In this document: positions 4,870 to 33,951 of the stretch, one piece after another
Numbering within the stretch: the first letter of the stretch is position 1
Layout of the letters: each line of letters starts with the position of its first letter
DNA from: an uncultured Pelagibacteraceae bacterium
GTDB taxonomy: Bacteria; Pseudomonadota; Alphaproteobacteria; Pelagibacterales; Pelagibacteraceae
Assembly (NCBI GenBank): GCA_902562205.1
Contig: CACESO010000010.1
Location: 1 to 38,636 of the forward strand
DNA: 38,636 bases
Direction: 5' to 3'
Notes under the pieces: generated by a model
Seen by the model: only the letters and a program-made list of their open reading frames with translations
Database searches by the model: none
What the model was told of the DNA's origin: nothing
Program-made: the position numbers and the translations under genes

Positions 4870-5745
4870 TTAGATATAATTTTTTTTTGTAATTTTTTTA
4901 AATTTGTAAAAAGCCATTATTTTTGAGAGAAAATATACAACTTTGCTAGGCCGTAAAATTATCAAGTTCAACAAAAGTTTTGTAAAATATTTAGGGACCT
5001 TATTGCTTAATTCGTTAAGTAGCCTTTCGTGTTTTTTGATCTTATAAAAATAATAAAGTTCATCAAAAGTGAAATGAAAATGTCTTAAAAAAGTTTTCTT
5101 AATGGGATTTCTCACTTTAATTTGACCATGTTCATGTGTCGCTCTAGCATTTAAAACCTGAATAACAGCTTTTTTTTTATCTCTTATACGTTTGCAAAGA
5201 TCATCATCTAAAAAATAAAGAAATAAATTTTCATCATATAGACCAATATTTATTATATCTGCTCTCTTGAACATTATTATTGATCCAAGAACAGTTTCAG
5301 CGCAAATATCTCCATCAAGAATAATAGGTTTCTTGTATAAATAATTCTCTGGAAAATTTCCTGCATTTGTACTCAAGTTTCGCTCTTTATCAAATAATGT
5401 TGGAGATACAATGAAAGAGTTTTCATATTTTTTATGAGCATCCAAAAGTTTGAATATATCTTTTTGATCAATTATGCCATCTGCTTGAAACATTAAAATA
5501 AATTCTGTATCTGAAAGTTTAATAGCCTGATTTGCCGCTTTTGAATATCCGTAATTTTTTTCATTTAATATATACTTGTAAATCTTATAATTTTTTGTGA
5601 CTATTCTTTTAAGAGCTATATTGTTTGCGTTGTCTACGATTATAATTTTAAAATTTTTTAAATTTTCTAAACATCGTAAAACTATCTTTTCTTTTTCCTC
5701 ATAAAGAATGATAATTATTGTAATTTCATTAGATGCAGTACTCAC
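4870..5745 (-). CDS. Glycosyltransferase family 2 (rhamnosyltransferase-like)
   Basis: A 291-residue GT-A fold enzyme, probably cytoplasmic and membrane-associated, transferring a sugar to a surface polysaccharide. The start is NEITIIIILYEEKE, the first nucleotide-binding Asp is in IIIVDNA (Asp38), ILNEKNYGYSKAANQAI at about 59-75 is typical of the family, and the DXD-equivalent region reads FQADG at 86-90. Further on, GSIIMFKRADIINIGLYDENLFLY and the DDDL acid cluster match the acceptor half of WcaE/RfbF-type enzymes. The start codon is GTG; no in-frame ATG lies close by. It reads in the same direction as the tRNA-Ser and the DUF6492-like and DUF4422 genes upstream, and a likely terminator follows. 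The sugar and acceptor cannot be told from the sequence. Confidence 0.8.
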   Translation of the reverse strand: MSTASNEITIIIILYEEKEKIVLRCLENLKNFKIIIVDNANNIALKRIVTKNYKIYKYILNEKNYGYSKAANQAIKLSDTEFILMFQADGIIDQKDIFKLLDAHKKYENSFIVSPTLFDKERNLSTNAGNFPENYLYKKPIILDGDICAETVLGSIIMFKRADIINIGLYDENLFLYFLDDDLCKRIRDKKKAVIQVLNARATHEHGQIKVRNPIKKTFLRHFHFTFDELYYFYKIKKHERLLNELSNKVPKYFTKLLLNLIILRPSKVVYFLSKIMAFYKFKKITKKNYI

Positions 5746-5903
5746 ATTTAATAGTTGAAAGATTTTATTTCTTTTGAAAAAGGGCTAGTTATTAATTTGC
5801 AAAATAATAAAAGGTTTATTAAAATTTTTCTCATTGCATTGACGCCCATATAACGACCATATTATCTTAGCTTGATTTTGACAATTGTAAAAGAGTAAAT
5901 AAA

Positions 5904-5993
5904 TGGCGGAGAGAGTGGGATTCGAACCCACGAAAGAGTTTCCCCTAAACACGCTTTCCAAGCGTGCGCCTTAAACCGCTCGGCCATCTCTCC
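5904..5993 (-). tRNA. tRNA-Ser (anticodon GGA)
   Basis: On the minus strand the 90-base sequence folds as a class II tRNA. The acceptor stem GGAGAGA pairs with TCTCTCC, followed by discriminator G and an encoded CCA. The anticodon stem CACGC/GCGTG encloses the loop TTGGAAA with anticodon GGA. A long variable arm and the T-loop GTTCGAATC are present. It reads UCC/UCU serine codons. Its 5' end is only 10 bases after the stop codon of the upstream DUF6492-like gene, so it may be transcribed with that gene or from a promoter inside it. Confidence 0.96.
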
Positions 5994-6003
5994 AAATTTT
6001 TAT

Positions 6004-6996
6004 TCAATTCATCTTATCAACATTTAAAGTAAACAGAACATTATGTTTAATTAGATTATAATAAAATTTTAATTTTGTTTTTAAAACTATAACTGTAAAG
6101 TCAAACCAACCTAATTTTCGTTTCAACATTCCCCTGCTATTAATATTGTTGTGAGTATGTTCGTAAGTTACATTTGTAATATTTAAAATACTCAAAAAGT
6201 TTAGTTGTTTCGATGTCAATAAGCCTTTCAATCCTTTTCTAAGATTTGCTATCAACTTTTGTTTTCCAGGTTTTGCTAAGGTATTTGAATTACCAATTAA
6301 TTCGTACTCTGAAAATAAAGATCCATTATAAGGACCGTTTAATATAAAAATTTTCTTCATTATCAAAACAGATAGTTTGCTTGCAATAGTATTAATTTTT
6401 ACACTTTTGATCTTTAATTTTTTCATTAGTATTTTACATTCATCCTTAGTTATTGATCCAAATTGAACAACAAAAGAAATGAAATATTTGGGGAGCTCTC
6501 CTAATAAAGCTTTATTGGTTTCAAAATATGATTTATGAAATTCTGTATAAGTACCAAACTTTCTAGAAAAATCTCCACTAAAAAATTCAATTTTTTTTGT
6601 TATAATTGTGTCTGCATCCCATAAGATCACTTTTTCATGAAATTTTTGTAAAAAATAAAAAGTAAATGTAAGTTTCAAAACTTGTTGGTAGTACCAAGAT
6701 AATCTCTTTTTAAATAAACCTCTAAATTTATATTTTTTTGATAATCGATAAAATATTTTTTCAAACTGAGGGAACGATATTATTTTATCTTCACTAATTA
6801 TAGTAAACTCATTAAATCTACATTTTTTTTTAAAGTGTTTAAAATCTTTTTTTGGGCAAATAATAAAAATGTTGAAATCTTTGTAAAATGATTTTAATTT
6901 TTGATAGTTGTTAATTATAATCGGTATGTTCCCTTTCAGGGAAACCTGGCATATATTTAGTTTATCTTTACTAAATTTTATTTTATCTAATTTCAT
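6004..6996 (-). CDS. Putative glycosyltransferase, DUF6492-like
   Basis: A protein of about 330 residues, probably GT-A-like and involved in surface glycan assembly. It has RLSWYYQQVLKL at 98-109, then VILWDADTII, with the putative metal/nucleotide-sugar motif DAD at 127-129. The combination of a tryptophan-rich helix and a WDADT strand is typical of the DUF6492 family, though the match is from memory. I chose the ATG at 6996 because it forms a 4-base ATGA overlap with the stop of the DUF4422 gene; a longer frame from 7029 would overlap by 37 bases. It sits directly upstream of tRNA-Ser. Very high Lys/Phe/Ile content reflects the extreme A+T bias. Donor and acceptor are unknown. Confidence 0.65.
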   Translation of the reverse strand: MKLDKIKFSKDKLNICQVSLKGNIPIIINNYQKLKSFYKDFNIFIICPKKDFKHFKKKCRFNEFTIISEDKIISFPQFEKIFYRLSKKYKFRGLFKKRLSWYYQQVLKLTFTFYFLQKFHEKVILWDADTIITKKIEFFSGDFSRKFGTYTEFHKSYFETNKALLGELPKYFISFVVQFGSITKDECKILMKKLKIKSVKINTIASKLSVLIMKKIFILNGPYNGSLFSEYELIGNSNTLAKPGKQKLIANLRKGLKGLLTSKQLNFLSILNITNVTYEHTHNNINSRGMLKRKLGWFDFTVIVLKTKLKFYYNLIKHNVLFTLNVDKMN

Positions 6997-7790
6997 AAAA
7001 GATGAGAGTCTGAAAATATCCAAGGCCATTCAATAGTTTTTGAATATTTTCTGAACCAAAATGGCATATATCTTTCTGCGAGAAAAGCATATAATCTAGT
7101 TTGATCATAACCTTTTAAATTTTCAAACCCAAAAATTTTCTCGCATTCAAACAACCATTCAAACTGATCTCTAAAAAAATTATTTAAAAATTTTTTTTTT
7201 GAAATAAACATTATGTGTGGATTATATGTTGTATTTCTATCTACGAATTCTGTAAAATCAGATTTATCTTTTTCATTCATTACTCTTATCGCTTTTTCTA
7301 ATACTCCATAGCCATGATGAAGATCAAATTGTGTTCTAATATTTATACGTTGGTGATCGAATAACAGTATCGGTTTTCTAATAACATTCCTCCAACCTCT
7401 CTTTAAAAGTTTTGATAATTTTGTTCCAAGAGGAATTGGTTCACAAAGCACCGCATCATATTTTTCCCATTCATTTGGTACGCTTTTTAGAATGATATTT
7501 GAAATATCATTATCTTCTCTATGACTTCTCGAATTTAGCCAAAATCTTCTTTTTTGACAAAATCCTATCCAATCATTATTACCGTATTTTTCGAGTTTAT
7601 TTTTCCAAAACCAATAATGAAAAGTTAATTCTGAATAATGTCTTTCCTTTTTTTGAATATTTTTACCACTTAAACAAGTAATATATTTTTGATTGAATTG
7701 TCTTTCACCTACTCCAACTAAATTAATATCTAGATCCTCCAAATACTTGATAGGTTTATCAGTTACACAAAAAATATTAAGATTGTTCAT
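6993..7790 (-). CDS. DUF4422 domain protein, probable glycosyltransferase
   Basis: 265 residues covering almost exactly one DUF4422 domain. Recognisable parts are HYSELTFHYWFWKN (about residues 51-64), NDWIGFCQKRRFW (about 72-84), the central DLHHGYG, FISKKKFLNNF and the closing GFENLKGYDQTRLYAFLAERYMPFW-type block. Proteins of this family are found in capsule, O-antigen and LPS clusters, often fused to or next to glycosyltransferases, and are thought to transfer sugars; the reaction is not established for this one. It overlaps the DUF6492-like gene by 4 bases, so the two are likely translated together. The 54-base gap to the divergent GT61 gene must hold promoters for both directions. Confidence 0.75.
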   Translation of the reverse strand: MNNLNIFCVTDKPIKYLEDLDINLVGVGERQFNQKYITCLSGKNIQKKERHYSELTFHYWFWKNKLEKYGNNDWIGFCQKRRFWLNSRSHREDNDISNIILKSVPNEWEKYDAVLCEPIPLGTKLSKLLKRGWRNVIRKPILLFDHQRINIRTQFDLHHGYGVLEKAIRVMNEKDKSDFTEFVDRNTTYNPHIMFISKKKFLNNFFRDQFEWLFECEKIFGFENLKGYDQTRLYAFLAERYMPFWFRKYSKTIEWPWIFSDSHLL

Positions 7791-7844
7791 ATATTAGTTT
7801 TTAGACCACAAAATATATTATATAAACAAATTAAAAATTTAAAA

Positions 7845-8915
7845 TTGAGAAAAAAACTTAAAAAAACTTATAAATTATTAAGAAGTTACTATTTCTCTAC
7901 TTTGTACAAAAAAATCCATCTTAAATCAGAGTTTCGGCCAAAATTTGTAAAATTAAAAAAACCTAAACTAAATAAAGTTTCTTATAAAGTATACTCAATA
8001 AAAAATTGCCGAATTTATACGAATTGTGTTGAAAATGTAAGTGTAATAAAAAACAATCAATTAATTGCAGAGGGTTCGTTTCAACAAATAAGTGGTAAAC
8101 TAGTAAGCGCAAAAAGAAATGAAGTTTTAAAATCAGGAACGCCGAAATTTTTAAAAAAAATAAATGGAAATGTTTTTAATCTGACACAAGGGGCAAGCGG
8201 GTATAATAACTATTCTCACTGGTTACTTGATATCGTACCAAAAATAATAATCTTATCTAGAGCTTATGATTTAAAAAAGGTAGATTATTTTTATTTCTCA
8301 AAATTAAATCATTTTCAAAAGGAAACTCTTAAGATACTAAAATTAAGTTCGATAAAAATTATAGATAGCAAATTCAATAAACATTGTTTAGTGGAAAATT
8401 TGATGTTTTGTACTCATCCACATTATTTTAAAGGAACCCTTTTTAATGCTCACAGTAACATTCCAAAATGGATTATATATAATCTAAGAAAAATATTTCT
8501 AGCCGCTGCAAGTAAAAAAATTGGAAATTATAAAAAAATTTATATTGATAGGTCTGACTCTCAATACAATCATTGTCAAATTATTAACGATACAGAAATT
8601 AAAGAATATTTGAAAAAAAAGGGTTTCAAAATAATTAGATTATCTGAGTATAGTCTCAAAGAACAAATTTCGATCTTTAAAAATTGTAAACTTGTTGTGG
8701 GACCACATGGTGCAGGTTTAGTAAATCTCATATTTTGTAAAAAAAAAACCAAGGTTTTAGAAATAAAGAATATAGGACATCCAAATATAGGTTATCAAAA
8801 AATCAGTAAATACAACAAACTAAAACATCAATATATCATGTTGAAAAAAATAGAAAATAATAAGCAAGGAGATATGTTTTTGCCAATAAAAAAACTTGAA
8901 AAGTTTTTGAATTAG
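7845..8915 (+). CDS. Glycosyltransferase family 61 protein
   Basis: 356 residues with the two hallmark blocks of GT61 (DUF563): NYSHWLLDIVPKI at about 122-134 and GPHGAGLVNLIFC at 286-298, with KIYIDRSDS at about 231-239 between them. Bacterial members take part in capsule or LPS synthesis. The start is uncertain: the first plausible codon is TTG at 7845, the frame stays open upstream, and no ATG is near; TTG is chosen because the divergent gene starts at 7790. It is the only plus-strand gene of the glycan block and converges on the GT17 gene with a 4-base overlap. The lone orientation suggests it was inserted independently of its neighbours. Confidence 0.75.
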   Translation: MRKKLKKTYKLLRSYYFSTLYKKIHLKSEFRPKFVKLKKPKLNKVSYKVYSIKNCRIYTNCVENVSVIKNNQLIAEGSFQQISGKLVSAKRNEVLKSGTPKFLKKINGNVFNLTQGASGYNNYSHWLLDIVPKIIILSRAYDLKKVDYFYFSKLNHFQKETLKILKLSSIKIIDSKFNKHCLVENLMFCTHPHYFKGTLFNAHSNIPKWIIYNLRKIFLAAASKKIGNYKKIYIDRSDSQYNHCQIINDTEIKEYLKKKGFKIIRLSEYSLKEQISIFKNCKLVVGPHGAGLVNLIFCKKKTKVLEIKNIGHPNIGYQKISKYNKLKHQYIMLKKIENNKQGDMFLPIKKLEKFLN

Positions 8916-9721
8916 ATAATCCAATCTTTATAAATATTTCGACTTTTAATTAAATATTCTGGAAATGAGTTATCTAAATCCACTTTAATGAAGTTATCTT
9001 TTCTTCCAATAATGTCCTCCCCCGAAATAATTTTTTTTTTTATTTCGTCTAGCTGAAGATATTTGGGATCAATACTTTCATTAAAATGTATAGGATCGTT
9101 TGTTTCACATAAATTTTTATATTTATAGAGTAAATTTTCAGCAGTCTTTAAATTGCAAAAATGCCAGCCACCATCTTTAATTATATTATTTAATCTTATT
9201 TTATCCAAACGCCAGAAAGGTCTTTTTTTAAATTTGAGGTCTCTTAACCATTGAGGAGATTTCAGATATTTTTTTACACAGATTCTTGTACCATTCCAGA
9301 ATGGATGATTTTTACTCTGTAAATTGAATTTATAATAAAAATGTTTTTGTTGAAATGTAGCATATCTCATTTTGTGTTTAAAACTTTTTATACTATTTGG
9401 ATTAGGAATTTCATCTAAATCTGAAATCAAAATTATATCATCATCCTTTGCATTTTTGATTCCTCTTGATATAGAATTTCTTTGATGATTTTCTCTTAAA
9501 TAAGGATCTTCACCACCAGGAAGATCTGTAACTGGTATATAAATAATTTTATTTCTAAATTTTTGAAATTTTTTAATATCAAATTTTAATTCTTTTGGAT
9601 TATTTTGCCAAGTTTTGTCACCTTCTACAATAACAAAGTGATCAACTGTTTTATCCAAAATATTTAATCTTAATTCTAGAAGTAAGTCTTCATCCCAATA
9701 TGAAAAACAATCGTATATCAT
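8912..9721 (-). CDS. Glycosyltransferase family 17 protein
   Basis: A 269-residue protein starting MIYDCFSYWDEDLLLELRL, the typical opening of GT17 enzymes (family of beta-1,4-N-acetylglucosaminyltransferases). The acidic catalytic/metal motif is DLDEIP at 101-106, preceded by VIVEGDKTW (30-38) and NHQRNSI (78-84). WHFCNLKTAENLLYK in the C-terminal half also fits the family. I use the ATG at 9721, one base after the lepA stop, rather than the longer frame from 9787 that would run into lepA. The coupling makes it the last gene of the long translation run, an odd place for a glycan enzyme. The true sugar and acceptor are unknown. Confidence 0.8.
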   Translation of the reverse strand: MIYDCFSYWDEDLLLELRLNILDKTVDHFVIVEGDKTWQNNPKELKFDIKKFQKFRNKIIYIPVTDLPGGEDPYLRENHQRNSISRGIKNAKDDDIILISDLDEIPNPNSIKSFKHKMRYATFQQKHFYYKFNLQSKNHPFWNGTRICVKKYLKSPQWLRDLKFKKRPFWRLDKIRLNNIIKDGGWHFCNLKTAENLLYKYKNLCETNDPIHFNESIDPKYLQLDEIKKKIISGEDIIGRKDNFIKVDLDNSFPEYLIKSRNIYKDWII

Positions 9722-9722
9722 T

Positions 9723-11531
9723 TTAATTTTCTTTATTGATTTTAAGCACTCCAATAAATGCTTCTTGAGGGATTTCCACTCTTCCAAATTGTTTTGATCT
9801 AGCCTTCCCCTTTTTTTGCTTATCTAGCAGTTTTCTTTTTCTATCTCTTGCTCCTCCGCCATGGATTTTTGTAAGAACATCTTTTTTAAAACCTTTTATA
9901 GTTTCTCGAGCGATAATCTTTCCTCCTATCGCGGCTTGAACAGGAATCATAAAATTATGTCGCGGAATTAAATCTTTAAGTTTTTCACAAACATCTCTGC
10001 CTATCGTTTGTGCAAAATCTTTATGAACCATCATTGCAAGTGCATCAACTGGCTCAGAATTAACTAATATTCCTAATTTTACCAAATCACCTTCTTTGTG
10101 GCCCATTATCTCGTAGTCAAAACTTGCATATCCACTTGTCATAGATTTCAATCTATCATTAAAATCAAAAACAACTTCATTAAGAGGTATTTCGTAATTT
10201 AGTACCGCTCTATTTCCTGAATAGTTTAAATTTTTTTGAATGCCTCTTTTGTTTTGACAGAGCTTCATTATGGAGCCCAAATATTGATCAGGTGTTATTA
10301 TTGTTGCTTTTATCCATGGCTCTTCAATAAATTTAATTAAAGTTGGATCAGGTAAATTAGAAGGATTTTGTAAATCTTGGATATTGCCATTATTTAAGTG
10401 GACTTTGTAAACTACACCCGGAGTTGTTGTTAATAAGTTAATATCAAATTCTCTCTCAAGTCTTTCGGTAATTATCTCAAGGTGTAACAAACCTAAAAAA
10501 CCACACCGAAATCCAAGCCCAAGTGCTGAAGAGGACTCTGCTTCATAAGAAAAGCTAGAGTCATTTAGTTGTAGTTTAGCTAAACCGTCTTTTAATTTCT
10601 GATACTCAGAACTATCGACTGGGAATAGACCGCAAAAGACCACTGGTTTGCTGGGTTTAAATCCCGGTAAAGCTTTTTTAATAGGACTTTGTGACTCACA
10701 GATAGTATCGCCAACTTTTGTATCAGATAAATTTTTAATTCCTGTAATAATAAATCCTATTTCGCCGGATTTTAATTCATCGATGTCTTTAGCTTTTGGT
10801 GTAAAAACTCCTACTTTTTCAACTATATGCTCCTGGTCAGTAGACATCATTTTTATTTTCATATTTTTTTTAAGTGTTCCGTCTATCACCCTTACCAATA
10901 TAATTACTCCCAAATATGAATCGTACCAACTATCTACAAGTAAACATTTTAACAATTCTTTTGTTTCACCTTTTGGGGGCGGTAGTGTCGAAACTATTTG
11001 CTCTAGAATATCTTCTATACCTTCACCTGTTTTTCCTGAACAAGGAACAGCATTAGAAGTATCAATACCAATTACATCTTCAATTTGTTTTTTAGTTCTA
11101 TCTAAATCAGAGGCAGGTAAGTCAATTTTGTTTAGTACAGGTATTATTTCGTGATTTATATCTAGCGCTTGATAAACATTTGCAAGTGTTTGTGCTTCAA
11201 CACCTTGGGTACTATCCACAATTAATATTGATCCTTCACATGCGTAAAGTGATCGACTAACCTCATAACTAAAGTCTACATGGCCAGGTGTATCAATAAT
11301 ATTAAGTATATATTCTTTGCCATCTTTAGCCTTGTAATTTAGTTTTACTGTTTGGGCTTTAATTGTGATTCCTCGCTCTCTTTCTATGTCCATAGAGTCT
11401 AATACCTGATCCTTCATCTCTCTTTCTGTCAGGCCTCCACATTTATGAATTATTCTATCTGCTATTGTCGATTTCCCGTGGTCAATATGAGCGATGATAG
11501 CAAAATTTCTTATGTTATCGAGATTAGACAT
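9723..11531 (-). CDS. lepA: Elongation factor 4 (LepA)
   Basis: A 602-residue translational GTPase of normal length, which acts on ribosomes in initiation or back-translocation. G1 is AHIDHGKST (14-22), the switch region has RERGITI (51-57), G3 is DTPGH (80-84) and G4 is NKID (134-137). The LepA-specific C-terminal domain ends with [20 protein letters not shown]. It directly follows pheT with no spare base, and is followed after one base by the GT17 gene, so translation is probably coupled along the chain. In many other bacteria lepA is paired with lepB; here it is attached to the pheST run. Confidence 0.97.
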
Positions 11532-27030: not shown

Positions 27031-27795
27031 ATGGCGGAATTCTTCGAGATTATAATTTTATCAGCAATACAAGGGATATCTGAATTTATTCCTGTCAGTT
27101 CATCTGCTCACTTATACTTAATGTCTGAAGTACAAAATTTTGAGATAAAGTCTCTTTTAACTGATGTTTCTCTTCATCTAGGATCACTATTAGCAATACT
27201 ATTTTATTTTAGAGATGATTTTTTAAAATTATTCAAAGATCAAAAATTACTTAAATTATTAATTTTTGGATCTCTACCTCTAATTATAGTTGGTTTCTTT
27301 GTATTCAAAACCGGATTAATTAATTATTTTAGAAGCATTGAAATAATAGCGTGGACTACAGTAATTTTTGCAATCTTTTTATATATTGCTGATAAATTTT
27401 CTGTAAGAAAAAAAATTGATACAGATTTAAATTTAAGGGCAATACTTGCTATTGGCATTTTTCAAGTGCTTGCATTAATTCCAGGAGTAAGTAGAGCTGG
27501 AATTGTTATTACTGCTGGCAGATTTCTCAACTTTGATCGATACGATTCAGCCAAAATTTCATTTTTTCTCTCTGTGCCAGCAATCGCCGGTGCAAGTTTT
27601 TTAAACTTAAAAGAATTAACTTTTTCAAATATTGAAGTAAATTTTATTGTTTTGCTTGCGGTCATCTGTTCTTTTATTTTCTCATATATCACAATTAAAT
27701 ATTTTTTAATTTTTGTTAAAAAATTTAGTATGAATTTTTTTGTAATTTATAGGGTTTGCTTAGGATTAGTCTTATTTTGGTTTATCTATACTTAA
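27031..27795 (+). CDS. uppP: Undecaprenyl-diphosphatase (BacA/UppP)
   Basis: 254 residues, slightly shorter than E. coli BacA (273), with about seven to eight membrane segments. The conserved site is QGISEFIPVSSSAHL (14-28), which carries the (E/Q)xxxE pair Gln14/Glu18, and PGVSRAGIVIT (151-161) with Arg155. FLSVPAIAGAS also fits. The enzyme removes phosphate from undecaprenyl diphosphate to recycle the lipid carrier for peptidoglycan and surface glycans, which links it to the glycosyltransferases elsewhere in the window. It converges with the DMT transporter gene, with a 24-base overlap of coding ends. Confidence 0.93.
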   Translation: MAEFFEIIILSAIQGISEFIPVSSSAHLYLMSEVQNFEIKSLLTDVSLHLGSLLAILFYFRDDFLKLFKDQKLLKLLIFGSLPLIIVGFFVFKTGLINYFRSIEIIAWTTVIFAIFLYIADKFSVRKKIDTDLNLRAILAIGIFQVLALIPGVSRAGIVITAGRFLNFDRYDSAKISFFLSVPAIAGASFLNLKELTFSNIEVNFIVLLAVICSFIFSYITIKYFLIFVKKFSMNFFVIYRVCLGLVLFWFIYT

Positions 27796-28677
27796 TCGTT
27801 TAAATTCTGGCATCAATTGTGACAACAAAACTCCAGCAAGAATAAATAAACATCCTAAAATATTATCTATGTTTAAAATTTGATTTAATATAATCCAAGC
27901 TGCTATCGTTGCAAAAACACCCTCTAATGAATAAATTATTGCTGCTGGTGCGGGACTAATATTTTTTTGTGCATAAATTTGTAAAACAAAGGCAAATCCA
28001 CCAGATAATACGCCTGCATAAAGAATTTCATATGTCTCGGATAAAATATTTGAAATTGTAAAGGTCTCATAAACTAATCCAATAAAGATTGATAAAATTG
28101 ATACTATTAAAGTTTGAATAAGGCCAACTGTGACTGGTAAATCAAATTTTTCCACTAGTTGTCCGATAAAAATAATATGTAAACTCCAAAATAAAGCACA
28201 TATCAATACTAATATATCTCCTTTTCTAACTGATGCGTCGTAAAAATTTGTTAGCAGATATCCTCCTACTACACACAACAAAACAGATGGCCAAACACTC
28301 CAATGAACTTTTTTTCGATAAAGAATATAAAGAACAAATGGTACTAAAGGTACATAAAAAATTGTAAAGAAAGCTGCATTAGCTACATCAGTATAGAGGA
28401 GTGCGACTTGTTGTAATGCAGAGGCTAAGAATAAAAATATGCCTATAGAGATTGAGAGATATAGAAAATTCTTTCTATCTTTATTAAATTCATTAAAAAA
28501 TTTATTTTTTTCAATTATTAAAAAAAAAGGAACCAGCGCAAGGAAACCAACAAAAAATCTCACTCCATTAAATGTGAAAGGGCCAATTTCATCCATCCCT
28601 GTATCTTGTGCAATAAACGTGGTACCCCAGATTAAACAGCAAACAAACGCGCTTACAAGTGATAGTCTTTTTGACAT
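27772..28677 (-). CDS. DMT-family (EamA) membrane transporter
   Basis: 301 residues, strongly hydrophobic, about ten membrane segments in two EamA repeats. The first repeat opens with CCLIWGTTFIAQDTG and FNGVRFFVGFLALVPFF; the second has GDILVLICALFWSLHIIFIGQ, then SLEGVFATIAAWIILNQ, the usual end signature of EamA proteins. Family members export or import amino acids, nucleotides or other metabolites; the substrate cannot be read from sequence. It starts 8 bases after the aceF stop, so it is likely cotranscribed with the pyruvate dehydrogenase genes. Confidence 0.88.
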   Translation of the reverse strand: MSKRLSLVSAFVCCLIWGTTFIAQDTGMDEIGPFTFNGVRFFVGFLALVPFFLIIEKNKFFNEFNKDRKNFLYLSISIGIFLFLASALQQVALLYTDVANAAFFTIFYVPLVPFVLYILYRKKVHWSVWPSVLLCVVGGYLLTNFYDASVRKGDILVLICALFWSLHIIFIGQLVEKFDLPVTVGLIQTLIVSILSIFIGLVYETFTISNILSETYEILYAGVLSGGFAFVLQIYAQKNISPAPAAIIYSLEGVFATIAAWIILNQILNIDNILGCLFILAGVLLSQLMPEFKRLSIDKPK

Positions 28678-28685
28678 TTAGTTAA

Positions 28686-29582
28686 TTATATTGAGAGGTT
28701 GTAGGCAAAATTTTTACCAAGGTTTTCTTTAATCTCATTACAAAATTTTGCAGCATCTGCTCCGTTAATAATTCTGTGATCATAGGATAGTGACAGCGGA
28801 AGTATAAGTTTGTCACTTTTATCTTTTTGAAATATTTTTCCAATTCCTAATATGGCTACCTCAGGTGGATTTATTATAGGTGTAAAAAATGTTCCACCTA
28901 TCCCACCAAGACTAGTGATAGTTATTGAACCACCTTGAAATTCTTTTTTGTCAATTTTTAAATTTCTACATTTATCACTTACTTCTTTTAATTTTTGCGA
29001 TAAATCAGATATTTTAAATTTATCGGCATCTCTTATTTTAGGAACCATAAGACCGTGTGGAGTATCTACAGCAATACCGATATGAAAATATTTTTTTAAT
29101 ATAATTTGATAATTTTCTTCATCTTTTATTGATGAATTGAATATAGGATATTTCATCATACTTTTTACCAATGCCTTAATTATAAAAGCAAGTGGGGTAA
29201 TTTTCTTTTGCTCACCTGTGTAACCATCCTTTAAATTTTTACGGAAGTTTTCAAGTTCAGTAACATCAGCTTCATCATGATGAGTAACATGTGGAATAGT
29301 TCTCCAAGATTCGGATAACAACGGTGCTGCAAGCCTTTTAACTCTTGGCATTTCAACAATTTCTATTTCGCCAAATTCAGAGTGATCAACTAAGTTTTTT
29401 TTAGGTTCTGGTTTTTGGGTTTCTTTTACCGGTATACTCTTTTTAGAATTTTTTATAAAATTTTTGACATCTTCCTCTGTTATTCTCCCGTTTCTTTCAG
29501 ACCCTTTTAAGTTATATATATCAGCCCCTAATTCACGTGCAAATTTTCTTACTTTTGGAGTAGCGAGTATTCTATTAATCAT
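28686..29582 (-). CDS. aceF: Pyruvate dehydrogenase E2 (dihydrolipoyl acetyltransferase) lacking a lipoyl domain
   Basis: 298 residues, far shorter than usual E2 chains (about 400-630). It begins at once with the peripheral-subunit-binding domain (ATPKVRKFARELGADIYNLKG, about residues 7-27, through GRITEEDVKNFI), then a Lys/Pro linker (about 46-75), then the acetyltransferase domain. The catalytic block SYDHRIINGADAAKF has His269; the fourth residue on is Asn273, where many E2s have Asp, but Asn is also known in Azotobacter E2. There is no lipoyl domain; it is found instead at the start of AceE. The start is 2 bases after the aceE stop. The protein should form the complex core and accept acetyl groups from lipoyl arms carried by E1. 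Confidence 0.93.
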   Translation of the reverse strand: MINRILATPKVRKFARELGADIYNLKGSERNGRITEEDVKNFIKNSKKSIPVKETQKPEPKKNLVDHSEFGEIEIVEMPRVKRLAAPLLSESWRTIPHVTHHDEADVTELENFRKNLKDGYTGEQKKITPLAFIIKALVKSMMKYPIFNSSIKDEENYQIILKKYFHIGIAVDTPHGLMVPKIRDADKFKISDLSQKLKEVSDKCRNLKIDKKEFQGGSITITSLGGIGGTFFTPIINPPEVAILGIGKIFQKDKSDKLILPLSLSYDHRIINGADAAKFCNEIKENLGKNFAYNLSI

Positions 29583-29584
29583 AA

Positions 29585-32500
29585 TTATAATTTTGTAGGT
29601 ATAGGTTTATTTTTATCAATGTTATATTTCTTAATTGCTTGTTCTGCATATTTTGATGGAATTAATTGTTCTTTTGCTAAAACACTTAAAGCGTAGGTAA
29701 CAATATATTTTTTATCCACCTCAAAGAAATTTCTAAGTTTTTCCCTACTGTCACTTCTTCCATAACCATCTGTTCCAAGCGAATAAAAACTTTTGTTAGT
29801 AAAAGGTCTTATTTGATCTGATGTAATTCTCATATAGTCTGATGCAGCTAGTATAGGACCTTCGGCATCTTTTAAACAATTTTCAACATATGTTTTTTTA
29901 GGTTTTTCTTTTGGATTTAAAAGATTAAATCTCTCCACTTCCATACCATCTTTTCTCAATTCATTAAAACTTGTCACACTCCACACATCACAATCAATTT
30001 TAAAATCTTTGTCTAATATGTCTGCCGCCTGCATCATTTCTCTTAAAATAGTTCCAGATCCTAATAGTTGGATTTTTGTTTTTTTATTTTTTGAAATTTG
30101 TTTAATTTTATACATTCCTTTTAAGATTGCTTCTTCAATATTTTTATCTTTTGGTATTGCTGGATGCGGATAATTTTCATTCATTGTTGTAATATAATAA
30201 AAAACATTTTCTTTTTTTTCATACATTCTTCTTAAACCATCTCTGAATATTACAGCTAACTCATAAGCAAAGGTTGGGTCATAGGAAACACAGTTAGGTA
30301 TTGTAGATGCAAGTAGATGGCTATGTCCATCTTGATGTTGTAATCCTTCTCCAGCCAAAGTTGTTCTTCCAGATGTAGCACCTATAAGAAATCCTCTTGC
30401 CTGACTATCACCTGCGGCCCAGGCGAAATCACCGACTCTTTGAAAACCAAACATTGAATAGAACAAATATATTGGAATCATTTCTATATCATGATTAGTG
30501 TATGATGTTCCTGCTGCTATCCAAGATGACATGGAACCAGCCTCCGTTATTCCCTCCTCTAACACCTGTCCTGATTTATCTTCCCTATAAGATGAAAGTA
30601 GTTTCGAGTCCACAGGCTCATACTTTTGACCCTCATGTGCGTAAATACCAATTTTTTGAAAAAAACCCTCCATACCAAATGTTCTAGCCTCATCAGGAAT
30701 TATAGGAACCAATTTAGGTGAAACATTTTTATCTCTTAAGAGGTTTGTTAACATTCTCACTAACGCCATAGTCGTCGACATTTCCTTAGTCCCTGTAGAC
30801 TGTTTCATCACATTAAAGATATCTTTTGGAGGAACTTTAATTGATTTGGCAAAAGATGATCTTTCAGGAATGAAACCTCCAAGTTGAAGTCTTCTCTCTT
30901 TTAAATATTTTATTTCTTGTGAGTCTTCTTTTGGTCTGTAGTATTCAATATTTTTTACCTGCTCGTCAGTTAAAGGAACATCAAATCGATCTCTGTAATA
31001 AAGTAAATCGTCTACGTCCAATTTTTTTTGTTGATGAGTGGTATTAATACTTTCCCCAGATTTACCCATTCCATAACCTTTGATAGTTTTGGCAATGATC
31101 ACTGTTGGACTACCTTTATTTTCTACTGCTCTATGGTAAGCTGAATACACTTTATGTGGATCATGGCCTCCTCGATTAAGCTTCCATATATCTCTATCGG
31201 TTAGGCTTGAGACCATTTCTTTTAATTCTTTGTATTTTCCAAAAAATTTGTCTCTTACATATGCGCCGCCCTTCGCCTTAAATGCTTGATACTCACCATC
31301 AACAGCTTCATTCATTCTTTTTACCAATAAGCCTGTTTTATCTTTTGCTAATAATTGGTCCCAATAAGATCCCCATATCACCTTTAACACGTTCCAACCG
31401 GCTCCTCTAAAAATTCCTTCAAGTTCCTGAATTATCTTTCCATTACCTCTAACGGGTCCATCTAATCTTTGAAGATTGCAGTTAACCACAAATATTAGGT
31501 TGTCTAATTTTTCTCTGGATGCTAATCCAATTGCACCTAAAGACTCTGGTTCATCCATTTCCCCATCTCCTAAAAAGGCCCAAACTTTTCTATTCTCATC
31601 TTTAATCAAACCTCTATTTATTAAATATTTCATAAATCTTGCTTGGTAGATCGCTAACATTGGGCCAAGACCCATTGATACAGTTGGAAACTGCCAATAG
31701 TTCGGCATCAGCCAAGGATGAGGATAAGATGATAAACCGCCTGGTAGGACTTCTTGTCTAAACGAGTCTAGTTGTTTTTCAGTTAATCTTCCCTCTAAAA
31801 AAGATCTTGCATAAATTCCAGGAGCACTATGACCTTGGAAATATATTAAATCTCCACCAAACTTATTATTTTTTGCTCTCCAAAAATGATTCATACCAAC
31901 GTCATATAATGTTGCAGCTGAAGCAAAGGTTCCTATGTGACCACCAAGATCAGGGTTTTTTTTATTAGCTCGTACAACCATAGCAGCTGCATTCCATCTA
32001 ATTAAAGATCTTATTTTTCTCTCAATGTTTTGATCCCCTGGAGATTTTTTATCCTCTTCAGGAGGAATAGTATTTATGTAAGGTGTATTTCGAGACAAGA
32101 CTAAATCTGAGCCCTCTTTATAAGAATGCTCAATTAATTGTTTTATTAAATATTGAGCTCTTTCTTTACCGTCATTTTGAAGAACTGCAGATAAAGACTC
32201 TAGCCACTCTTTAGTTTCAATTGGATCTAAATCATTGCCATCAGATATTATTTCAATATTTCTGGTTGGTTTCTTTTTCTCAAGGCTTATAGTTTGTGTT
32301 TCAACAGGTTTTTCTTGTTCTGCCCTTTGAGATTTTTCTGCGTCTACAATTATTTTTTCAGTATCTTGAGGAATATCTAAATTTTTGACTTCTTTTTTCT
32401 CAGGTTCAGGTTTTTTTTCAGAGGCAGATTGAATTTCTACTAGTTTGTCTCCCTTTGATACTTTATCACCAACTTTTACTAAAATTTTTAATACATCGCC

Positions 32501-32656
32501 CTCTTCTGTACTTGGTACTTCTACACTTGATTTATCACTTTCAAGTGTAACAATAGAATCATTTTTTTGAATTTTTTGGCCTTCCTTAACAAGGACTTCG
32601 ATAATCTCTACGTTATCAAAATCTCCTATATCAGGTACTAGAATATCTTTTTTCAT
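29585..32656 (-). CDS. aceE: Pyruvate dehydrogenase E1 (homodimeric type) with N-terminal lipoyl domain
   Basis: 1023 residues; ordinary AceE has about 890. Residues 1-77 are a full lipoyl domain (ILVPDIGDFDNVEIIEVLVK, then ESDKSSVEVPS) with the lipoyl-accepting lysine at 42. A charged linker rich in Lys, Glu and Pro covers about 78-135. The E1 part begins near 141 at DLDPIETKEWLE, matching E. coli AceE close to its own N terminus, so nothing of E1 is lost. The thiamine diphosphate region runs from GDGEMDEPESLGA (363-375) to VNCNLQRLDGPVRGNG (391-406). The enzyme decarboxylates pyruvate and acetylates lipoate. With the lipoyl-free E2 downstream, the fusion explains where the arm has gone. E3 is not in the window. 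Confidence 0.95.
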   Translation of the reverse strand: MKKDILVPDIGDFDNVEIIEVLVKEGQKIQKNDSIVTLESDKSSVEVPSTEEGDVLKILVKVGDKVSKGDKLVEIQSASEKKPEPEKKEVKNLDIPQDTEKIIVDAEKSQRAEQEKPVETQTISLEKKKPTRNIEIISDGNDLDPIETKEWLESLSAVLQNDGKERAQYLIKQLIEHSYKEGSDLVLSRNTPYINTIPPEEDKKSPGDQNIERKIRSLIRWNAAAMVVRANKKNPDLGGHIGTFASAATLYDVGMNHFWRAKNNKFGGDLIYFQGHSAPGIYARSFLEGRLTEKQLDSFRQEVLPGGLSSYPHPWLMPNYWQFPTVSMGLGPMLAIYQARFMKYLINRGLIKDENRKVWAFLGDGEMDEPESLGAIGLASREKLDNLIFVVNCNLQRLDGPVRGNGKIIQELEGIFRGAGWNVLKVIWGSYWDQLLAKDKTGLLVKRMNEAVDGEYQAFKAKGGAYVRDKFFGKYKELKEMVSSLTDRDIWKLNRGGHDPHKVYSAYHRAVENKGSPTVIIAKTIKGYGMGKSGESINTTHQQKKLDVDDLLYYRDRFDVPLTDEQVKNIEYYRPKEDSQEIKYLKERRLQLGGFIPERSSFAKSIKVPPKDIFNVMKQSTGTKEMSTTMALVRMLTNLLRDKNVSPKLVPIIPDEARTFGMEGFFQKIGIYAHEGQKYEPVDSKLLSSYREDKSGQVLEEGITEAGSMSSWIAAGTSYTNHDIEMIPIYLFYSMFGFQRVGDFAWAAGDSQARGFLIGATSGRTTLAGEGLQHQDGHSHLLASTIPNCVSYDPTFAYELAVIFRDGLRRMYEKKENVFYYITTMNENYPHPAIPKDKNIEEAILKGMYKIKQISKNKKTKIQLLGSGTILREMMQAADILDKDFKIDCDVWSVTSFNELRKDGMEVERFNLLNPKEKPKKTYVENCLKDAEGPILAASDYMRITSDQIRPFTNKSFYSLGTDGYGRSDSREKLRNFFEVDKKYIVTYALSVLAKEQLIPSKYAEQAIKKYNIDKNKPIPTKL

Positions 32657-32745: not shown

Positions 32746-32848
32746 TATTAATTTTATTAAGAAAAAGCCTAATTATAAAAATTTAGACGCAAAAATTTGG
32801 GTGCAAAATATTATTCTTAATAAATATTATAAATCACTTAAATATTAA
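32732..32848 (+). CDS. Possible small basic protein, 38 residues
   Basis: An ATG-started frame fills most of the gap between aceE and the thiolase gene and ends 4 bases inside the tail of the latter. The product opens MLKIFINFIKKKPNYKNLD and continues with AKIWVQNIILNKYYKSLKY. It is basic, with one Trp, and has no recognisable domain. No clear ribosome binding site is seen, and the start lies inside the right arm of the inverted repeat. It is unknown; short open frames occur by chance, but this one is kept because it contains several G/C-bearing codons and fits the gap neatly. Confidence 0.3.
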   Translation: MLKIFINFIKKKPNYKNLDAKIWVQNIILNKYYKSLKY

Positions 32849-33951
32849 TCTTTTTCTATACACATTGAAATTCCCATCCCTCCTCCGATGCATAATGTTG
32901 CCAAACCTTTTTTTCCACTTATTTTTTTTAATTCATTTAAAAGTGTAACAACAATTCTTGCTCCAGAGGCACCTATCGGATGACCGAGCGCTATTGCTCC
33001 ACCATTCACATTTACTTTTTCTTTAGGAACTTTTAACTCTTTAATTACAGCAATGCTTTGAGCAGCAAAGGCTTCATTAATTTCTACCAAATCCAAATCT
33101 TTTATATTCCATTTCGCTATTTCAAGAGCTTTGTTTGATGAGGGGATTGGCCCTAATCCCATCATAGATGGATCAACACCACAGGTTGCCCAAGATATAA
33201 TCTTTCCTAATATTTCTAAATTATTTTTTTCAGCTAACTCTCTTGTTGTTAATACCACTGCAGCTGCTCCATCATTTATACCCGATGAATTTCCGGGAGT
33301 GACAGTTCCTTTTTCCTTAAAAACAGAATTTAATTTTGATAGGTCGTTAATTGTAATTCCAGTTCTTGGATGTTCGTCAATATCATCGTTAATAATTTCG
33401 GTGTTAAATTTTTTTTTGCTCATTGCTATGTTTGCTTTATGTTGAGATTGAAGTGCAAACTCATCTTGTTCTTGTCTTGATATATCATATTTTGCAGCAA
33501 TATTTTCAGCTGTAACACCCATATGATAATTATAAAAAGCATCCGTCAAACCATCTTTCATCATTTGATCATGAATTGAATTAGTCATACTTTCTTGACC
33601 ACCAGCAATTATAAAGTTTGCAGAATTTGTTAGTAATGACTGATAACCATTTACAATTGATCGTAGTCCAGATCCACACACCTGGTTTATAATTATTGCA
33701 GTCTTTTCTTTTGGAATTCCAGAATTTATAGCTGCTTGCCTTGCTGGATTTTGTCCACATGATCCTGTCAAAACTTGTCCCAATATTACCTCGTCAATTT
33801 CATCTACATTCAACCTAATCTTTTCAATTAAACTTTTAATTACCAAAGAACCTAAATCATGTGCCTGTAAATCTTTATAAATACCTTTATATCTTCCAAT
33901 AGCTGATCTTTGAGCCGCAACGAAAACAATGTCTTTAGAATTTTTTGACAT
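32845..33951 (-). CDS. Acetyl-CoA acetyltransferase (compact thiolase)
   Basis: 368 residues; the Zoogloea enzyme has 392. The catalytic residues are Cys92 in NQVCGSGLRS, His324 in LGHPIGASGAR and Cys354 in LCIGGGMG, and YHMGVTAEN is kept. The enzyme joins or splits acetyl-CoA/acetoacetyl-CoA (PhaA/AtoB type). Compared with the Zoogloea enzyme recalled from memory, about 16 residues are missing between GGQESM and DGLTDAF, the tetramerisation-loop region, and about 11 more before KLNSVF, near the CoA-binding loop. The frame is intact, so this is not a frameshift. It stands alone on the minus strand, divergent from tRNA-Arg, and no partner beta-oxidation or PHB gene is adjacent. Direction in the cell is unknown. 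Confidence 0.92.
   Translation of the reverse strand: MSKNSKDIVFVAAQRSAIGRYKGIYKDLQAHDLGSLVIKSLIEKIRLNVDEIDEVILGQVLTGSCGQNPARQAAINSGIPKEKTAIIINQVCGSGLRSIVNGYQSLLTNSANFIIAGGQESMTNSIHDQMMKDGLTDAFYNYHMGVTAENIAAKYDISRQEQDEFALQSQHKANIAMSKKKFNTEIINDDIDEHPRTGITINDLSKLNSVFKEKGTVTPGNSSGINDGAAAVVLTTRELAEKNNLEILGKIISWATCGVDPSMMGLGPIPSSNKALEIAKWNIKDLDLVEINEAFAAQSIAVIKELKVPKEKVNVNGGAIALGHPIGASGARIVVTLLNELKKISGKKGLATLCIGGGMGISMCIEKD

Follow-up and report, generated by a model that had tools for sequence, protein, structure and literature searches.

The usual account of active-site coupling in 2-oxoacid dehydrogenases invokes swinging lipoyl arms that belong to the E2 core. The pyruvate dehydrogenase (PDH) of Zymomonas mobilis, described by Neveling in 1999, reportedly carries a lipoyl domain on E1-beta; its E1 is heterotetrameric, and its E2 also has a lipoyl domain. 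A study by Matic from 2003 is said to deal with PdhD of Mycoplasma hyopneumoniae, an organism in which E1 is likewise heterotetrameric and E2 is not known to carry a lipoyl domain. A passage of PMC7873978 places lipoyl domains on E3 in Alcaligenes, Neisseria and M. hyopneumoniae, with PdhD as the lipoylated subunit of the last, and on E1 in Zymomonas, where the text says alpha and a title cited there says beta. In Escherichia coli each E2 bears three lipoyl domains, which makes 72 in the whole core, as given in a section of PMC8421416; E1 bears none. The present analysis concerns the aceE-aceF locus, encoding the E1 and E2 subunits of PDH, in a 38,636-nucleotide stretch of DNA (hereafter the window) from an uncultured Pelagibacteraceae (SAR11) bacterium (GenBank assembly GCA_902562205.1, contig CACESO010000010.1). 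The best explanation of this locus is a working PDH complex whose only swinging arm is on E1, the arm having been copied to E1 and then lost from E2 (rough probability 0.86).

Domain anatomy of AceE and AceF

The two genes lie on the minus strand, aceE first, with 2 bases between them. Their features are as follows:

29585..32656, minus strand: aceE, lipoyl-fused homodimeric-type pyruvate dehydrogenase E1 (open reading frame (ORF) of 1023 residues; Pfam and NCBIfam)
32432..32647, minus strand: AceE lipoyl domain, residues 4-75, lipoyl lysine K42 in ESDKS (PF00364)
32237..32428, minus strand: charged linker of AceE, 64 residues, 77-140, between the lipoyl domain and E1
32111..32236, minus strand: E1 N-terminal docking segment, residues 141-182 (alignment with E. 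coli E1 residues 6-47)
29585..32236, minus strand: E1 catalytic body, residues 141-1023 plus stop (TIGR00759; PDB 1l8a, 1157 bits)
28686..29582, minus strand: aceF, lipoyl-free dihydrolipoyl acetyltransferase E2 (ORF of 298 residues; Pfam and NCBIfam)
29463..29570, minus strand: peripheral subunit-binding domain (PSBD), residues 5-40, at the extreme N terminus of E2 (PF02817; aligned with E. coli AceF from residue 328)
28719..29369, minus strand: E2 acetyltransferase domain, residues 72-288, with SYDHRIING (PF00198; fold match 4n72/7b9k)

AceE contains a complete lipoyl domain ahead of a full-length E1 of the homodimeric type, as the original prediction had read from the DNA; the linker, estimated there at about 60 residues, was measured to be 64. 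The Pfam Biotin_lipoyl match at residues 4-75 (4.5e-18; 65.3 bits against a cut-off of 22.1) is followed by transketolase-type E1 domains, and the lipoyl lysine K42 lies within ESDKSSVEVPS. Residues 141-1021 match NCBIfam TIGR00759 over model positions 4-883 of 885, and the score of 1441.9 bits, above the curated cut-off of 859.9, places AceE in the homodimeric PDH E1 family. Its lipoyl domain and linker depart from the usual architecture of that family, which has no extra N-terminal domain. AlphaFold gave the lipoyl domain a pLDDT of 72-87 per 10-residue block over residues 1-80 and the full AceE, modelled from 20 aligned sequences, a mean of 46.2; the lipoyl domain alone is well modelled, and the model does not inform the E1-E2 geometry.

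AceF starts with the PSBD, again in agreement with the prediction. Pfam assigned E3_binding to residues 5-40 and 2-oxoacid_dh to residues 72-288, found no lipoyl domain, and nothing precedes the PSBD. The PSBD and the catalytic domain with its DHR motif make the protein an E2, which lacks the one or more N-terminal lipoyl domains of that family; its TIGR01348 score is 318.1 bits against a cut-off of 552.1. The motif S[FY]DHR[VILM][IV][DN]G was found in 132 of 134 E2s, both exceptions being outgroup loci with DHRAIDG. The structure model of AceF is moderate (69.6), and its structural matches are AceF-type cores.

The lipoyl domain on AceE is of the p-type, matching TIGR01348 at 2.1e-22 versus sucB at 7.5e-9; the family match and the lipoyl lysine together assign it to the AceF type. 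It can be aligned over nearly its full length with each of the three lipoyl domains of E. coli AceF. A part of PMC8421416 lists six acidic residues of the E. coli lipoyl domain where it touches the E2 catalytic domain. In our own mapping, five of the six are kept in the AceE domain (D9, D14, E17, E39 and D41), the sixth, E. coli E218, is N15, and R407 of E. coli E2 corresponds to R80 of AceF, which is invariant among 19 sequences.

The segment following the linker, AceE 141-182, corresponds by alignment to E. coli E1 6-47, which forms chain C of PDB 9h1n. Residues D142, D144, P145, E147, T148, E150 and W151 are invariant in 20 aligned sequences. A widened expression for this motif matched 70 of 127 fused AceEs, the misses including the variants DPSET, DPQET and DPLET; because the exact motif varies across the family, conservation of the segment is claimed for the 20 aligned sequences only. 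Nuclear magnetic resonance of the E. coli proteins, as reported in part of PMC6270654, showed that the N-terminal region of the PDH E1 (E1p) binds mainly the PSBD. From this and the alignment, the E1-borne arm would begin right beside the docking segment.

This anatomy suggests how the complex may operate. An AceF-type lipoyl domain, presumably lipoylated at K42, would sit on a flexible linker just before the segment of E1 that docks on the PSBD of E2, which would tether the arm near the point from which an E2-borne arm starts. E1 would decarboxylate pyruvate and reductively acetylate the lipoyl group of its own or its partner chain; the lipoyl domain would then swing on its linker to the E2 catalytic domain, where acetyl-CoA would form, and would be reoxidised at E3 docked on neighbouring E2 chains. 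E2 would thus serve only as a hub of docking sites and as transacetylase. Given the anatomy and the E1-PSBD docking described for E. coli in that part of PMC6270654, the arm count would be at most the number of bound E1 chains, and an E2 chain without a docked E1 would have no arm of its own. It is fairly probable that such an armless E2 hub, with E1 bringing the only arms, operates in part of SAR11 and that the E2 arm was lost there several times independently.

Recurrence and history of the fusion

Among 99 family genomes, 73 (counted by hand from the rows listed) were found to have an AceE whose alignment begins no later than query residue 8 and extends at least to residue 1021. The remaining genomes have fragments, a partial alignment, only an unfused paralogue, or weak matches, and one has no match. 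An E2-type match at 1e-40 occurs in 240 of 300 genus genomes, the weakest of which may be SucB. Among the matches listed, 149 whole-frame E2 rows fall into two length classes, 62 of at most 330 residues and 87 of at least 415 with none between (G347, cut by a contig end, was left out). Lipoyl domains on E1 and E2 in 135 parsed pairs were counted as 1:0 in 78, 1:1 in 44, 2:1 in 3, 1:2 in 2 and 0:1 in 8, the last comprising seven AceEs of other families and one broken frame (L184). These pairs are enriched in short E2s, 40 loci having been fetched for a short E2 frame, and some genomes are in twice; merging identical rows reduces 135 pairs to 112 rows, 64 of them 1:0. Loci L079, L093, L096, L102 and L116 yielded no complete aceE-aceF pair, and L184 was excluded from the trees and motif counts. 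A scan of named GTDB genomes with the window's E2 as query returned 37 loci, all titled Pelagibacteraceae, Pelagibacter or Pelagibacterales; as an E2 query finds close relatives only, these titles say nothing on distribution.

This recurrence bears on the suspicion that the fusion is an artefact of chimeric assembly or frame fusion, which now seems hardly credible. Single-cell genomes can contain chimeras, and the aceE frames of L079 and L102 are split, but a near full-length lipoyl-AceE in 73 of 99 family genomes from many genera and the 1:0 layout in 78 of 135 pairs do not fit such an origin; the latter count also speaks against a chance occurrence. Because the same pair recurs in many Pelagibacteraceae genomes, an assembly error was rejected; the possibility, raised with the original prediction, that relatives would lack the fusion was contradicted.

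Some loci show further variation. In L079 (G129), L102 (G254) and L184, the aceE frame is broken and aceF is intact, likely reflecting assembly errors in single-cell or metagenome data. The E2s of L119 (G005) and L123 (G048) contain two lipoyl-like domains, the second of which has no lipoyl lysine and is thus a dead domain that has been kept. Four genomes (G009, G069, G040 and G375; loci L224-L227) encode a second, unfused AceE paralogue, about 53% identical, in frames of 890-902 residues; no E2 or lipoyl gene was found among ORFs of at least 120 residues within about 3.4 kb or more on each side. In G009, this paralogue lies beside genes that by eye resemble TRAP-transporter and PEP-mutase genes. 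Several aceE copies have been reported in SAR11 IIIa, according to a passage of PMC10030771. No AceE match at E<=1e-20 was found in four genomes of the same genus (G097, G107, G440 and G464; 92-97% complete), nor in any of the 16 listed genomes of f2, a sister family in the same order (G392-G407); 37 more genomes, not listed by name, also gave no match. The homodimeric PDH may be peculiar to Pelagibacteraceae within its order.

Outside Pelagibacteraceae, no lipoyl-AceE fusion was found among the matches listed from 289 class and 398 phylum genomes, the scope of this search. The class scan identified five non-family genomes with a close AceE (E of 0), none of which aligned before residue 120, and their aceE-aceF pairs have the 0:1 layout. 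The phylum scan gave a match at 1e-100 in 161 of 398 genomes, and the non-family matches listed never start before residue 75. With the cut at E<=1e-100, a lipoyl segment separated from E1 by a linker could have escaped notice, and upstream sequence was therefore fetched for 20 outgroup AceEs: the 18 listed non-family phylum rows with open frames of at least 960 residues (including G554), and G667 (990 residues) and G563 (924 residues) from the class scan. No lipoyl domain was found upstream in these 20, 19 of which have open frames of at least 960 residues; as a control, the same profile detects the E2 lipoyl domains of seven outgroup pairs. Three outgroup alphaproteobacterial loci (L136, L137 and L138) contain, besides aceEF, an extra short ORF that begins with a lipoyl domain and is apparently truncated where the locus ends; it may represent a lipoyl-E3 fusion.

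A core tree was built from E1 and E2 together (112 rows, 1186 columns; quick search, LG+G4, rooted with outgroups). In it a single branch with full support (100*) separates every fused AceE from the outgroups, which have lipoyl domains on E2 only. All seven outgroup E2s carry one, and the earliest branch inside the fused-AceE family holds the 1:2 and 2:1 layouts. The fusion is thus at the base of the family, at a stage when one or two lipoyl domains were still present on E2. Lipoyl-free E2 requires 5 changes on the best tree, 4 of them forced by starred branches, compared with a shuffled mean of 36.5; with loss alone allowed, it forms 8 separate groups. The window's clade of 23 rows consists entirely of lipoyl-free E2s (100*). 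By parsimony, loss from E2 came later than the fusion and happened more than once. The original prediction had the arm moved from E2 to E1, which does not agree with this order of events, nor with the 44 of 135 pairs that have a lipoyl domain on both chains. In a separate tree of the lipoyl domains, those of family E1 and E2 form a group that excludes the E2 domains of outgroups (96/94*), as would be expected if copying took place within the family. The most likely history is that the arm was copied to E1 and the original E2 arm was then lost, several times in the SAR11 family: a lipoyl copy would have been added to aceE in the family ancestor, making the lipoyl domain of E2 redundant, and the latter would then have disappeared in several lineages, including that of the window. 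The median E1 linker is 64 residues in rows with lipoyl-free E2 versus 50 in others, a difference that may reflect kinship alone, with 4 independent pairs and no significance.

The E1 lipoyl domain is under purifying selection. Every one of the 84 different E1 lipoyl domains (130 when repeats are counted) retains ESDKS, and the lipoyl lysine is missing from 2 of 45 different E2 lipoyl domains, both second domains of 1:2 layouts. The pooled ratio of nonsynonymous to synonymous substitution rates for the E1 lipoyl domain was 0.031 and 0.024 in two clades with lipoyl-free E2 and 0.031 and 0.014 in two 1:1 clades. Across the four clades, the E1 core gave 0.020-0.028 and the linker 0.14-0.31, so that the lipoyl domain is close to the core and far below the linker.

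Genome content and rival explanations

The window is contig 10 of a 1.03-Mb genome in 26 contigs (G000), which is 89% complete. Two E2 catalytic domains were detected in this genome, those of AceF and of SucB (440 residues, with a lipoyl domain), and three Biotin_lipoyl domains, belonging to SucB, AceE and a protein that resembles AccB and carries the biotin motif EAMKTM. A second AceF-type lipoyl domain or lipoyl-bearing E2 of PDH (E2p), for which the original prediction had proposed a search, was not found in the genome as assembled. The one E3 above cut-off (466 residues) adjoins sucB and has no PF00364 match, so the Mycoplasma-type layout is absent. PF00676 has three matches over cut-off: a strong one (190.9 bits, 952-residue frame), identified as SucA from its position and length, and two weak ones of 32.3 and 28.7 bits. 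LipA is present. The single BPL_LplA_LipB match is a 168-residue protein, read as BirA-like.

This inventory allows a rival explanation, a hybrid complex in which PDH shares its particle with 2-oxoglutarate dehydrogenase (OGDH), the SucB lipoyl domain serving E1p and that of E1 being auxiliary. The genome does encode a SucB carrying a single lipoyl domain, together with its one E3. Hybrids of PDH and OGDH occur in Corynebacterium, according to the abstract of PMC7568260. However, the SucB lipoyl domain is o-type, with V and I where the AceE domain has D9 and D14 (aligned by eye), and AceF retains its own PSBD and catalytic domain. E. coli-type E1p prefers p-type lipoyl domains. The strong purifying selection on the E1 lipoyl domain and the presence of its lysine in every case seen likewise count against it, and a hybrid complex is considered very improbable.

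Several observations weigh against the explanation of an arm on E1 alone. Two basic lipoyl-contact residues of E. coli E2, K391 and K396, are not kept in AceF. LipB gave no match in the 89% complete assembly, leaving octanoyl transfer to K42 unaccounted for. Because of this degree of completeness, a second lipoyl-bearing E2p, or a stand-alone lipoyl protein, is conceivable in the unassembled 11% of the genome, which is spread over 26 contigs, and other genomes with lipoyl-free E2, such as G093 (2 matches) and G083 (3 matches), have extra weak matches to lipoyl-AceE at E<=0.001. Set against this, G051, a 99% complete genome with lipoyl-free E2 (L007), has a single match to the lipoyl-AceE query at the same threshold, and a stand-alone lipoyl ORF occurs in only 1 of 40 fetched lipoyl-free-E2 loci (L079), where the aceE frame itself is broken; L093 and L096 among these 40 end before the aceE start and are uninformative on this point. 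A missing arm-bearing protein of this kind is very unlikely.

The remaining points concern the history. The lipoyl-domain tree (73 columns) has no single group of E1 domains (0% of 200 bootstrap trees), which need 3 changes there, though its supported branches are compatible with one group; 30 E1 domains, including those of the window's clade, stand beside E2 domains and not other E1 domains. As the E1 domains are ungrouped, copying may have happened repeatedly, or gene conversion may have exchanged domains of E1 and E2. Parsimony with equal costs permits 5 changes including regains, versus 8 losses. The E2 domain may therefore have been lost early and regained from E1, or converted, instead of being lost many times. 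Against such a course, the E2 lipoyl domains are not nested inside the E1 clades of their own lineages, the labels need 4 changes versus 28 when shuffled, and the seven outgroup E2s all have the domain. Regain or conversion is considered unlikely, if less so than the rivals above, and copying to E1 followed by repeated loss from E2 is preferred.

Upstream of aceE lies a thiolase gene (32845-33951, minus strand), and downstream of aceF an EamA transporter gene (27772-28677, minus strand). Elsewhere in the window, a block of glycosyltransferase-like ORFs at 4870-9787, between gyrB-like and lepA-like genes, is by eye possibly a variable surface-polysaccharide island.

Comparison with known systems

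What does an arm on E1 mean for PDH? A complex with arms on E1 only puts to the test the need for an arm anchored in the core and the number of arms required, as well as the idea that E1 occupancy can set the supply of arms. The 1:0, 1:1, 2:1 and 1:2 layouts of sister lineages provide a natural series for comparison. If the proposed history is true, it would represent a repeatable route for rewiring a central multienzyme complex in a streamlined genome. PDH feeds the tricarboxylic acid cycle of SAR11, which is among the most abundant families in the ocean according to the abstract of PMC10030771. This SAR11 genome paper notes aceEF, and the passages concerned do not describe the domains. Among the papers listed by full-text searches, which covered few subscription papers, none dealt with a homodimeric E1 fused to a lipoyl domain or described this trait for SAR11, and none of 35 matched PDB sequences is listed with a lipoyl and an E1 part in one chain.

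The arrangement is real, recurrent and under purifying selection, but it does not amount to a new class of machine, as subunits other than E2 are already known to carry lipoyl domains. The Z. mobilis PDH is similar in having a lipoyl domain on an E1 chain; unlike that layout, with the domain on E1-beta of a heterotetrameric E1, E1 here is of the homodimeric AceE type and E2 has no lipoyl domain. The M. hyopneumoniae PDH resembles it in carrying the lipoyl domain on a non-E2 subunit, which is E3 there and E1 here. E. coli AceE-AceF shares the same E1 and E2 families, the docking segment and the catalytic domains. The aceEF pairs of other Pelagibacteraceae have the same fused AceE but differ in lipoyl layout: 44 of 135 pairs keep one lipoyl domain on E2, 2 of 135 keep two there, of which the second has no lysine, and 3 of 135 have two on E1 and one on E2. 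Overall, the surprising part is the combination of a homodimeric E1 type bearing the arm with an armless E2.

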